Shown one piece after another: positions 2,081 to 23,380 of a stretch of DNA of 32,034 bases. The translations under genes and the position numbers were made by a program. The notes beneath the pieces are model-generated. The model did no database searches. It was not told the origin of the DNA and saw nothing but the letters and a program-made list of their open reading frames with translations. Source of the stretch: Alteromonadaceae bacterium (GTDB lineage Bacteria; Pseudomonadota; Gammaproteobacteria; Enterobacterales; Alteromonadaceae); the NCBI GenBank assembly GCA_013216005.1, contig JABSOJ010000018.1, positions 1 through 32,034 on the forward strand, read 5' to 3'. How positions within the stretch are numbered: position 1 is the first letter of the stretch; each line of letters opens with the position of its first letter.

Positions 2081-2238
2081 GGCTCTGTTCCATAATACTG
2101 TTGTCCCTCGATGAATCCCCTATTTTTAAAGGGTTAGGCGATAAATTGGTTTTTTAACGAGAATTAGTCACAGAGTCCTAGATATAAGGGTTGAGTTTAA
2201 TTCCATTTGAAGGGACAACAATTATCTACAACAGAGCC
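2081..2238 (+). mobile_element. 158-bp MITE-like element, copy 1, with 8-bp target duplication
   Basis: The ends are GGCTCTGTT and AACAGAGCC. The terminal 28 bases match as an inverted repeat at 22 positions, in two blocks (outer 9 and inner 10, TGTTGTCCCT). It is flanked directly by TAATATTT on both sides (2073-2080 and 2239-2246), a perfect 8-bp target duplication. There is no reading frame of useful length, so it would need a transposase in trans. The reverse complement at 21785-21942 is identical over all 158 bases. End sequence and 8-bp duplication resemble families such as IS6 or IS1595, but I cannot assign one. It fills most of the 359-bp gap between arfA and rmuC; the rest of that gap (1907-2072) is AT-rich with no supported feature. 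Confidence 0.88.
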
Positions 2239-20017: not shown

Positions 20018-20536
20018 TTGAAAAAATTTATTAAATCTATCGCTATTGTAACGGCAGCATCGAGTTTTTTATTAGCGAGTTCAGCTATGGCTGCAGATCA
20101 AAAAATTGGCGTAGTAAATTTTCAGGAAATCATGGGAAAAATACCTCAAGCATCTGCTGTAATGCAAAGCTTAGAAGCTGAATTTAAAGATGAACAAGCA
20201 GGATTAACTGCACTTGAAAAAGATATTAAGTATCTTCAAGAAAAGAAGAAGCGTGATGGTTCTTTGATGAGCGCTAAAGAAAAAGAAGCGTTAGATAAAG
20301 AAATTGGTGAGAAATATAAAGATTACCAAACTAGAGGCCAAGCATTTCAACAGAAAGTGAATGTCCGTCAACAAGAAGAACAAAGTAAAATTATTGCTCT
20401 TGTTCGTCAAGCTATTGATAACATCGCAGCTAAAGGTAAATTTGATTTAGTGCTTGAGCAAAAATCTGTTGTTTACAATAAGCCTGAACACAGCATCACA
20501 AGTCAAGTTGTTGAGCAAGTAAGTAAACTTAAATAA
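20018..20536 (+). CDS. skp: Periplasmic chaperone Skp (OmpH family)
   Basis: Skp is a trimeric, jellyfish-shaped chaperone that holds unfolded outer-membrane proteins for BamA. The protein is 172 aa (E. coli 161). A signal peptide (about 1-25, basic KKFIKS then a hydrophobic core, cleaved after SAMA) leads to ADQKIGVVNF, the conserved first strand. The middle is a long charged helix (lysine- and glutamate-rich, about 50-130) forming the tentacle. Translation starts at TTG 20018, with AGGAGA just upstream; an in-frame TAG lies directly before it and the first ATG is inside the signal peptide. It is followed by a strong terminator. Confidence 0.95.
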   Translation: MKKFIKSIAIVTAASSFLLASSAMAADQKIGVVNFQEIMGKIPQASAVMQSLEAEFKDEQAGLTALEKDIKYLQEKKKRDGSLMSAKEKEALDKEIGEKYKDYQTRGQAFQQKVNVRQQEEQSKIIALVRQAIDNIAAKGKFDLVLEQKSVVYNKPEHSITSQVVEQVSKLK

Positions 20537-20610
20537 TTTTTAGTTTTTAATGTGATTTAAAAATTAGTTAAAATGTTACTTTCTAGTTAACACTAGTTTA
20601 GTAAAAAGTG

Positions 20611-20650
20611 AAAAAGTACTTATTGAAAAATAGTACTTTTTTGTTTTTTT
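20611..20650 (+). terminator. Intrinsic terminator after skp
   Basis: AAAAAGTACT (20611-20620) pairs with AGTACTTTTT (20632-20641), extended by ATT/AAT past one bulged T and capped with a GAAA loop; the T-rich tail runs to 20650. It separates bamA-skp from lpxD, so lpxD probably needs its own promoter or depends on read-through. Confidence 0.85.
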
Positions 20651-20734
20651 AATCCCTACATTAGTTGATAATTTGGTACAATTGGCATTTGAATTCATCA
20701 ATAATCTTTAATGATTGACCTATTGTGAGACACC

Positions 20735-21826
20735 ATGAGTTACACACTTGCAGAAATCGCAGAAAAAATTGACGCAACTCTTATTTCTTCATCTCAAGGG
20801 GATGGCGACAAATGTAAAGTTGACAGTCTCGCGACTTTAGCTTCTGCGGGAGCCGGTCAGATTGCTTTTTTGTCAAATACCAAATATCGCCAGCAATTAT
20901 CGTCAACTAAAGCTAATGCTGTTATTCTCGATCAAGATTGTCTTGATGATATTCAAAACCCTGCTTTTCATGCCTTAGTGATGAAAAACCCATATATGGG
21001 TTATGCTATTGTTGCACAATTATTGGATAATACTCCCGCTACAGCAAAAGCAATACACGCAAGTGCTGTTATCGCGCAAGACGCTTCTTTAGGCGAAAAC
21101 GTTAACATTGGTGCAAATACCGTTATTGAATCGGGAGCTGTTATTGCTGACAATGTTTCTATTGGAGCTGGTTGTTTTATTGGTGAGCAAGCGCGTATTG
21201 GTGCTAATACATCATTGTGGTCAAATGTCAGTATCTATCATCGAGTTGAAATAGGTCAACATTGTTTAATTCAAGCGAACACCGTTATTGGTTGTGATGG
21301 TTTTGGATACGCAAAAGATAATGGCAGTTGGTTTAAGATCCCTCAATTAGGTACCGTGATTATCGGTGACAATGTTGAAATTGGCGCAAGTACGACAATT
21401 GATCGCGGTGCATTAGAAAATACACTTATCAGTAATGGTGTTATTTTAGATAATCAAATTCAAATCGCACATAATGTAGTTATTGGTGAAAATACGGCAA
21501 TGGCTGCCTGTAGTGTTATTGCTGGCAGTACTGTTGTTGGTAAGAACTGTTCAATTTCAGGTTTAGTTGGCATTAATGGTCATATTGAAATCACAGATGG
21601 TTGTGTTTTCACAGGTCAAGCTATGGTAACAAAATCTATCACAGAACCTGGTGTTTATTCTTCTGGTACTCCGGCAGTTGCAAATAGAGAGTGGAATAAA
21701 AACAATGCCAGAATCAGGCGTTTAGATGGTTTATCTAAGCGAGTGAAGAGTTTAGAAAAAGCATTTGAGAATGTAGTTAAAAATGGCTCTGTTGTAGATA
21801 ATTGTTGTCCCTTCAAATGGAATTAA
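20735..21826 (+). CDS. lpxD: UDP-3-O-(3-hydroxyacyl)glucosamine N-acyltransferase, MITE-altered C-terminus
   Basis: LpxD adds the second acyl chain in lipid A synthesis, from acyl-ACP to UDP-3-O-acyl-glucosamine. The protein is 363 aa (E. coli 341). It has an N-terminal uridine-binding domain (about 1-100), a left-handed beta-helix of hexapeptide repeats (about 105-315) and a C-terminal helix. The catalytic His is H246 in IQIAHNVVIG. The last 13 codons (residues 351-363) and the stop lie inside the 158-bp MITE. Without the element and one target copy, the frame would continue as AVD then TAA, giving an inferred ancestral 353 aa. The catalytic and helix parts are intact, so the protein is probably functional. 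The terminator ahead of the gene implies a local promoter; a TACAAT at 20677-20682 is only a weak candidate. Confidence 0.96.
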   Translation: MSYTLAEIAEKIDATLISSSQGDGDKCKVDSLATLASAGAGQIAFLSNTKYRQQLSSTKANAVILDQDCLDDIQNPAFHALVMKNPYMGYAIVAQLLDNTPATAKAIHASAVIAQDASLGENVNIGANTVIESGAVIADNVSIGAGCFIGEQARIGANTSLWSNVSIYHRVEIGQHCLIQANTVIGCDGFGYAKDNGSWFKIPQLGTVIIGDNVEIGASTTIDRGALENTLISNGVILDNQIQIAHNVVIGENTAMAACSVIAGSTVVGKNCSISGLVGINGHIEITDGCVFTGQAMVTKSITEPGVYSSGTPAVANREWNKNNARIRRLDGLSKRVKSLEKAFENVVKNGSVVDNCCPFKWN

Positions 21827-21942
21827 ACTCAACCCTTATATCTAGGACTCTGTGACTAATTCTCGTTAAAAAACCAATTTATCGCCTAACCCTTTAAAAA
21901 TAGGGGATTCATCGAGGGACAACAGTATTATGGAACAGAGCC
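21785..21942 (-). mobile_element. 158-bp MITE-like element, copy 2, inside the 3' end of lpxD
   Basis: It is the exact reverse complement of 2081-2238 (158 of 158 bases). It is flanked by a different perfect 8-bp direct repeat, TTAAAAAT, at 21777-21784 and 21943-21950. Different duplications around identical elements prove two separate insertions, not one duplicated segment. The first 42 bases supply the final codons and stop of lpxD; the remainder is the non-coding spacer before fabZ. No transposase is encoded. Confidence 0.92.
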
Positions 21943-22049
21943 TTAAAAATGCAGTTGATTAAAAAATTAGGCAGAGTGCAAGCAATTAAATTATAGTAGT
22001 TTCATTTATAAAAAGTAGTGGATTTAATAATATAGTAAGGAAAAATAAC

Positions 22050-22502
22050 TTGGAATCTTCAAAAAGCGCAATAAATTTAAACGAAATTAAAAACTTGATC
22101 CCGCATAGATACCCCATGTTATTAATTGATCGTGTAATCGATCATGAACCGGGTAAGTGGTTACATGCCATCAAGAACGTTACCATTAATGAACCTATTT
22201 TTAATGGCCATTTTCCTGAAATTGCGATTTTTCCTGGCGTTTTGATACTTGAAAGTATGGCACAGGCTACGGGGATTTTAGGATTTAAAACAGAGCCGGA
22301 ACGTGGCGAAAATGAAATGTATCTTTTTGCTTCAATAGAACAGGCTCGTTTTAAACAGCCTGTAATTCCGGGTGACACTATGCATTTGCATGTTGAGTTA
22401 CTGAAAGAGCGTCGTGGTATGTGGAAATTTCAGTGTGAAGCCAAAGTTGATGGCAAAGTTGTCTGCACTGCTCAATTAATGTGTGCTAGAAGAGAATTAT
22501 AA
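22050..22502 (+). CDS. fabZ: 3-hydroxyacyl-ACP dehydratase FabZ
   Basis: FabZ dehydrates 3-hydroxyacyl-ACP in fatty-acid elongation and competes with LpxA and LpxD for hydroxyacyl-ACP, which is why it sits among them. The protein is 150 aa (E. coli 151), a single hot-dog fold. Catalytic H54 is in NGHFPEI and E68 in [24 protein letters not shown] is the conserved opening. Translation starts at TTG 22050: an in-frame TAA precedes it, AAGGAA lies 7 nt upstream, and the next Met is inside the conserved core. The spacer from lpxD (223 bp) is long because of the MITE. Confidence 0.97.
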
Positions 22503-22582
22503 TCATTCTTTTAAAATCTGAAATTTATCTTGCTGAGACACTTGTTTCAGTTAGGTTATAAAAGTTCTAATTAGGATAAAAA

Positions 22583-23380
22583 ATGACAGATAGTGATATG
22601 CATAATAACGATATAAACCCGCATGCGATAATTGAATCAGGTGCTGTTATCGGGAATAACGTCAAAATCGGTCCATGGACATACATCAGTAAAGATGTTG
22701 TTATCGGTGATGATTGCCATATTAGCTCACATGTCGTTATTAATGGACCAACACTAATAGGTAAGGGCAATCGTATTTTCCAATTTGCCAGCATAGGTGA
22801 AGATTGTCAGGATTTAAAATATGCCGGTGAGCCAACAGAATTAGTGATTGGCGATAATAATACTTTTCGGGAATGCTGTACTATTCACCGGGGTACTATT
22901 CAAGATCAAAGCCTGACCCAAATTGGCAACAATAATTTATTCATGGCTTATACCCATGTAGCTCACGATTGTATGATTGGCAGTCACTGTATTTTAGCGA
23001 ACAATGTTTCAATTGCTGGTCATGTTCATGTTGGTGATCATGCTATTATTGGTGGCATGTCAGGCGTTCATCAATTTTGTCATATTGGGGCGCATAGTTT
23101 TGTTGCAGCTAATGCTCTGGTATTAAAAGACATACCTACTTACGTGATGGCCTCTGGTCATCCGGCAAAACCTTTTGGTTTAAACTCTGAAGGTTTAAAG
23201 CGTAGAGGTTTCAGTAAAGATTCAATATTAAATATTAAACGTGCTTATAAAGCTGTTTACCGTAAACATCTGTCTCTTGAAGATGCATTGATTGAAGTAC
23301 ATAAACTGGTTGAACAATGCCCGCAAGTGAAAATTTTTGCTGAATCTATTGAAAGTTCATCCCGTGGAATTATTCGGTAA
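22583..23380 (+). CDS. lpxA: UDP-N-acetylglucosamine 3-O-acyltransferase
   Basis: LpxA carries out the first, reversible step of lipid A synthesis, acylating UDP-GlcNAc from 3-hydroxyacyl-ACP. The protein is 265 aa (E. coli 262) and almost entirely a left-handed beta-helix with a helical C-terminus. Catalytic H128 is in THVAHDC (E. coli H125). FQFASIGEDCQDLKYAGEPT and EGLKRRGFS match the family. ATG 22583 has AGGA 6 nt upstream; an alternative ATG at 22598 lacks this. It is 80 bp from fabZ. The following gap to lpxB is unusually long at 379 bp and holds a repeat. Confidence 0.98.
   Translation: MTDSDMHNNDINPHAIIESGAVIGNNVKIGPWTYISKDVVIGDDCHISSHVVINGPTLIGKGNRIFQFASIGEDCQDLKYAGEPTELVIGDNNTFRECCTIHRGTIQDQSLTQIGNNNLFMAYTHVAHDCMIGSHCILANNVSIAGHVHVGDHAIIGGMSGVHQFCHIGAHSFVAANALVLKDIPTYVMASGHPAKPFGLNSEGLKRRGFSKDSILNIKRAYKAVYRKHLSLEDALIEVHKLVEQCPQVKIFAESIESSSRGIIR

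Follow-up and report, generated by a model that had tools for sequence, protein, structure and literature searches.

The lpxD gene of an Alteromonadaceae bacterium very probably owes its present 3' end to a mobile element. In a window of 32,034 nucleotides (the whole stretch of DNA analysed here), a non-autonomous 158-bp MITE with ends of the IS1595-transposase type would have inserted after lpxD codon 350, duplicating TTAAAAAT. Translation of lpxD would then run 13 codons into the element and stop at the element's own TAA, with GSVVDNCCPFKWN replacing AVD, and the insertion would have been tolerated because its site lies past the conserved part of the protein, at the end of the C-terminal helix. 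The insertion and its duplication, the empty site in a sister genome, the multicopy family and the ends in common with an IS1595-family element are each directly demonstrated by the comparisons below.

The lpxD locus and its empty site

The interrupted gene is identified as lpxD by a match to TIGR01853 (lipid_A_lpxD; 356 bits, cut-off 242.5), together with matches to the N-terminal domain PF04613 (67.9 bits, cut-off 30.8) and to the hexapeptide repeats of PF00132. It is the only full-length lpxD match in the genome, and fabZ and lpxA follow it in line, as in the sister genome. From what is generally known of lipid A synthesis, the gene is expected to be essential. The features of the locus are as follows.

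20,735 to 21,826, forward strand: lpxD frame from the open reading frame list, 363 codons and TAA; codons 1 to 350 are host sequence, and codons 351 to 363 and the stop come from the element
21,777 to 21,784, forward strand: left copy of the 8-bp target-site duplication, TTAAAAAT, within lpxD codons 348 to 350
21,785 to 21,942, forward strand: 158-bp MITE with IS1595-family-type ends, identical to 30 of the 47 other complete copies in the genome
21,785 to 21,812, forward strand: left arm of the terminal inverted repeat (28 nt), with 79% complementarity to its right counterpart
21,785 to 21,826, forward strand: element-encoded tail GSVVDNCCPFKWN and stop (lpxD residues 351 to 363; TAA at 21,824 to 21,826)
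21,915 to 21,942, forward strand: right terminal inverted repeat arm, pairing imperfectly with the left arm
21,943 to 21,950, forward strand: right copy of the duplication, TTAAAAAT
21,951 to 21,962, forward strand: displaced native lpxD end GCA GTT GAT TAA (A V D stop), past the reach of lpxD translation
22,050 to 22,502, forward strand: fabZ, the next gene (NF000582 FabZ match)

The tail GSVVDNCCPFKWN is encoded by bases 1 to 39 of the element in the lpxD frame, and the TAA that follows also belongs to the element. It terminates in CCPFKWN and includes two adjacent cysteines, and the tryptic C-terminal peptide expected of the tailed protein is NGSVVDNCCPFK, or the same peptide with WN. A sequence-only reading of the window had already placed a 158-bp element at these coordinates, with TTAAAAAT on both sides and with lpxD entering it at codon 351, and it was correct in every detail.

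Removal of the element and one copy of the duplication joins GTTAAAAAT directly to GCAGTTGATTAA. The resulting empty-site gene encodes 353 residues and reads ...LEKAFENVVKNAVD-stop. In the sister genome, which is the only other genome of the genus examined (the genus search covered 2 of 2 genomes), lpxD lacks the element, also encodes 353 residues and ends in ...LEKTLEKSFENAVD-stop (...SFENAVD-stop). The two proteins align without gaps and are identical at 305 of 353 residues. The distance from the old lpxD stop to the fabZ start, calculated from the coordinates, is 87 bp in the window, compared with 90 bp in the sister; from the current stop, with the element included, it is 223 bp. The native ending AVD-stop that the same reading had deduced from the flanks is therefore the ending that the sister gene has, and the exchange of three residues for thirteen, with the gain of two adjacent cysteines, is borne out by the frame and the empty site.

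The tail is peculiar to this gene among the relatives compared. The best 80 of 95 lpxD matches were kept, and 79 of these could be read to a stop (the remaining one, L087, ran off its contig). None of the 79 carries the 13-residue tail, in agreement with the expectation that relatives lacking the element would also lack its tail, and none has two adjacent cysteines within its last 40 residues. Thus far, the tailed lpxD has been seen in one genome only. The last residues of LpxD differ widely among relatives, and the length of the protein ranges from 337 to 366 residues among the 53 relatives matched from residue 1 onwards; lengths were counted from the start of the match, and the minimum of 324 over all relatives represents a partial match.

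The MITE family and its presumed parent

The element is short and non-coding, has inverted ends, occurs in many dispersed and near-identical copies with varied duplications, and has ends in common with an IS element of autonomous type, which are the properties of a MITE. When as many as three mismatches are allowed, its ends are found 69 times (left) and 77 times (right) in the genome, which is a draft in 801 contigs (completeness 93.64, contamination 4.65). End patterns read backwards, used as a control, gave no match in either genome of the genus. The copies comprise 48 complete, 21 left-only and 29 right-only examples, which puts the true number at roughly 77 to 98. Letter-identical sequences account for 31 of the 48 complete copies, that in lpxD included; the others have one difference (10 copies), two (2 copies), three, five or 18 (1 copy each), and two copies of 157 bp were left unscored for differences. 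The family is young and present in high copy number, and reflects a recent burst.

The octamers flanking the complete copies agree at all eight positions in 45 of 48 cases, and at seven, six and five positions in one case each, whereas flanks taken from different copies and paired agree at all eight in 0.27%. The duplications of the complete copies are 93% A+T.

These data bear on whether the lpxD insertion exists in the organism at all. A wrong join made by way of the repeat might have put the MITE between lpxD and fabZ in silico: the assembly is highly divided, short reads can be misjoined at a 158-bp repeat of which dozens of identical copies exist, the MITE may be about as long as a short read, and many contigs end inside it, as the left-only and right-only copies attest. 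Such an artefact is nonetheless extremely unlikely, because the same octamer TTAAAAAT occurs on both flanks of the lpxD copy, as mismatched flanks so rarely do, because the next gene is fabZ, as in the sister, and because the element-free reading matches the sister lpxD in length and in its last three residues. A true insertion is thus the preferred interpretation of the locus. About 50 contigs begin or end within the MITE, which makes the element one of the main reasons why this assembly is fragmented.

The window contains another copy of the element, at the following position.

2,081 to 2,238, reverse strand: second MITE copy, 100% identical, with the duplication TAATATTT at 2,073 to 2,080 and 2,239 to 2,246

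This copy ends 27 bp before the ATG, at 2,266, of a long reading frame that we take to be RmuC-like. The insertion may have displaced the promoter of that gene.

A candidate parent of the MITE is present in the sister genome. There, a 1039-bp element encodes an IS1595 / ISXO2-like DDE transposase (L128:1501-2448) that matches NF033547 (IS1595 family; 175.4 bits, cut-off 75), PF12762 (56.8 bits, cut-off 27) and, in its N-terminal zinc-binding domain, NF050000 (43.2 bits, cut-off 28). Over 25 nt, the MITE ends are 96% (left) and 92% (right) identical to the ends of this IS, and no long match to the sister IS was found in the MITE interior. The right end of the sister copy has decayed.

In the genome under study, a related IS lies on contig C279 (1252-2456), with ends to which those of the MITE are 96% and 84% identical, and its transposase gene is interrupted by the MITE. 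When the MITE and one duplication are subtracted, this IS measures 1039 bp, the same length as in the sister. No intact IS1595 parent was found in the draft assembly, whose single long copy is the one broken by the MITE, and other related transposase pieces lie at contig ends. For the two long IS copies, no clear 8-bp duplication of their own was seen when judged by eye. Contig C279 (L179:1252-2456) is thus a case of a dependent element disrupting a copy of the IS that probably helps it to move.

According to the part of the family description available (PMC8101967), IS1595 elements usually generate 8-bp duplications, and, one group aside, their transposases contain a zinc finger. The MITE resembles this family, as that source portrays it, in its terminal GG and its 8-bp duplications, and its ends are as in the 1039-bp IS. 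It differs from an IS of the family in lacking a transposase gene and in having an interior without long matches to the IS. The MITE was presumably moved by an IS1595-family transposase. An IS6-type element had been the first guess, from the resemblance of the end GGCTCTGTT, and was rejected once elements with these ends were seen to carry an IS1595-family transposase.

The sister genome also carries the MITE, with 15 left and 19 right ends that include 100% identical copies. Comparison of 147 flank ends (one contig end, C142, is counted twice) with the 34 of the sister gave four local matches and no shared insertion point; one of the four matches lies in related DNA, with the two insertions approximately 250 bp apart. 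An old insertion common to both species was therefore rejected, since no insertion point is shared and the lpxD site of the sister is empty. Letter-identical MITEs occur in both species, and the LpxD proteins of the two differ at 14% of residues. The presence of identical elements, with no shared site found, suggests that the MITE has recently moved between the two species, or that the bins are mixed.

In a set of 118 family genomes that contains the two discussed here, the whole element is found in two, both of this genus, and was not found outside it. In a set of 59 relatives, three genomes had a match, and the third (G014) matches the terminal 25 bases only. That genome, from another genus of the same family, has the terminal 25 bases in seven places at 96% identity, and one of these borders a transposase frame of 339 codons. 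The lineage of G014 is a likely source of the parent element. Two other means of spread were considered and set aside: a 40-base piece of the element gave no exact match in a collection of viral contigs, and a plasmid collection gave no match, which argues against carriage by known viruses or known plasmids.

Consequences for LpxD and for other genes

The junction between residues 350 and 351 lies ten residues beyond E341, the last invariant column in an alignment of 30 sequences. Matches to the LpxD family models extend no further than residues 336 and 345, and the alignment with E. coli LpxD (3eh0, 341 aa) reaches as far as 343. AlphaFold2, run with a 30-row alignment, predicts a C-terminal helix at residues 318 to 351 of the window protein and gives the tail no fold (mean pLDDT 52); the corresponding helix in the sister protein is predicted at 317 to 352. 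Both models are of single chains, are middling in quality (pTM 0.63 and 0.58) and are silent on the trimer. Because the junction is beyond the last invariant residue and at the end of the C-terminal helix, the exchange of this loose end is most likely near-neutral, and the tailed LpxD is probably made and working. The earlier description of a rewritten C-terminus is accurate for the sequence; it does not establish a change of function, given that the junction is ten residues past E341, in a part of the protein that varies freely.

An effect on LpxD is conceivable, because the C-terminal helix bundle contacts the acyl carrier protein in the solved structures, as described in the part of the structural report available (PMC6820557). 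Perhaps, then, the tail has been put to use, with the cysteines or the 13 residues as a whole changing trimer stability, the hand-over from the acyl carrier protein or the turnover of LpxD; the tail starts just where the predicted helix ends. This seems very unlikely, however. The tail is confined to a single genome and the relatives end in unrelated residues, it is predicted with low confidence and without a fold, and the element copy is unmutated, so that there has been no time for selection on the tail, or there is no sign of it.

A different concern is that a harmful or half-lethal insertion has been caught in a transient minority state, in which the tail or a stem-loop in the messenger lowers the output of LpxD or of fabZ-lpxA-lpxB. 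The element is predicted to form a strong stem in the messenger (-49.9 kcal/mol, z -6.8, with none of 200 shuffles as stable), the spacing from lpxD to fabZ is much enlarged relative to the 90 bp of the sister, and few of the complete copies interrupt long frames, as detailed below. The tailed lpxD could be a minority state in its population. We consider a harmful state improbable: the lpxD frame is otherwise undamaged, the element contains neither a terminator-like nor a promoter-like site, and C-termini donated by elements persist in strains of Coxiella, according to the section of the published report available (PMC5896051). The search of positions 21,785 to 21,942 found no promoter-like or terminator-like site, and a scan over 20,500 to 22,700 gave no more sites than in shuffles. 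A promoter or terminator made by the element was rejected on these grounds. A near-neutral exchange at the end of LpxD remains the favoured interpretation.

The MITE has stops in all six frames, and the longest open stretch from either border is 24 full codons, or 25 when the junction codon is counted. Because every frame is closed within 25 codons, a gene acquires a new C-terminus wherever the element lands in it. The sequence-only reading had remarked that the lpxD frame is kept open up to its first stop; this is true, and is not special to lpxD, since it follows automatically from the stops of the element.

Frames open for at least 100 codons are interrupted by six of the 48 complete copies, although a frame may be open without being a gene. 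With native losses taken up to the following in-frame stop, lpxD has lost 3 codons, the fewest of the six. The other losses are 22 codons in a SnoaL-like protein, 204 in the IS1595 transposase, 160 in a rhamnosidase-like protein, and 13 and 62 in two frames that lack a Pfam match. Most copies of the MITE are harmless by position.

Copies at contig ends (20 left and 29 right ends; the left end on contig C210 was outside the scan) were searched for interrupted frames of at least 80 codons, which yielded three: a DUF2282 protein, a YCII-related protein and one frame of 96 codons. The YCII-related frame scores below the Pfam cut-off and has no match in the sister. The DUF2282 protein is encoded on contig C358 (3382-3737; L261 / L271; PF10048, 81 bits), where the right MITE end replaces its stop. 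Its ortholog in the sister is 92% identical and ends in ...KPAKK-stop; the TAG of the sister reads TGG at the element border, and the frame then adds at least 23 residues before the contig runs out. The other flank of this copy is off the contig, and its native stop is taken from the sister ortholog. The start of the DUF2282 tail is rich in hydrophobic residues.

These examples raise the possibility that the MITE acts as a portable C-terminus, with new tails on several working proteins (13 residues on LpxD and at least 23 on a DUF2282 protein of secreted type), some of which alter the protein. We think this unlikely. If it were true, the first generation of protein ends made by an element would be observable before selection has acted on them.

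Relation to known elements and significance

Small mobile repeats that supply the ends of genes are known from other bacteria. In Coxiella burnetii, the elements QMITE1 and QMITE2 supply the last residues and the stop of functional genes, such as pntAA, mutT and nagZ, and in one strain enhC gains 33 residues from a QMITE; these statements follow the part of the report that is available (PMC5896051). The QMITEs, as presented there, are similar to the lpxD MITE in copy number, in insertion at the 3' ends of genes and in donating an end. They belong to other element families and another host, and are described as no longer transposing, whereas the lpxD MITE is nearly free of mutations. Moreover, the lpxD case has a relative with an empty site that reveals the native ending, a point of difference from the QMITEs as far as the same text extends.

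Two other systems are instructive. The Rickettsia palindromic elements (Ogata 2000 and 2002, known to us by way of excerpts of a review, PMC10969869) are repeats of about 150 bp that lie in-frame within genes whose protein function is known. According to those excerpts, they are read through as an internal peptide, whereas the MITE in lpxD ends the protein. An ERIC (RU-1) element at the 3' end of the amidase gene ECA3499 removes the stop and adds a C-terminal extension past the conserved domain, as set out in the portion of the report available (PMC2759123). The lpxD MITE is similar in that a small mobile repeat supplies the 3' end of a gene. In contrast, the ERIC copies are old and diverged, and in that portion of the text they are presented without a matched pre-insertion site with target duplication.

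A search of the available literature found no earlier report of an element-donated end of lpxD. The type of event is already in print for the QMITEs, and the lpxD instance is new and unusually clean.

The finding leaves knowledge of lipid A synthesis unchanged. Its value is as a clean and datable case in which a mobile element supplies the end of a core enzyme, with the site, the duplication, the unmutated element and the empty site all readable. In addition, so young and numerous a family provides a modest natural collection of insertions, each in a known frame, from which the tolerance of protein ends could be gauged.
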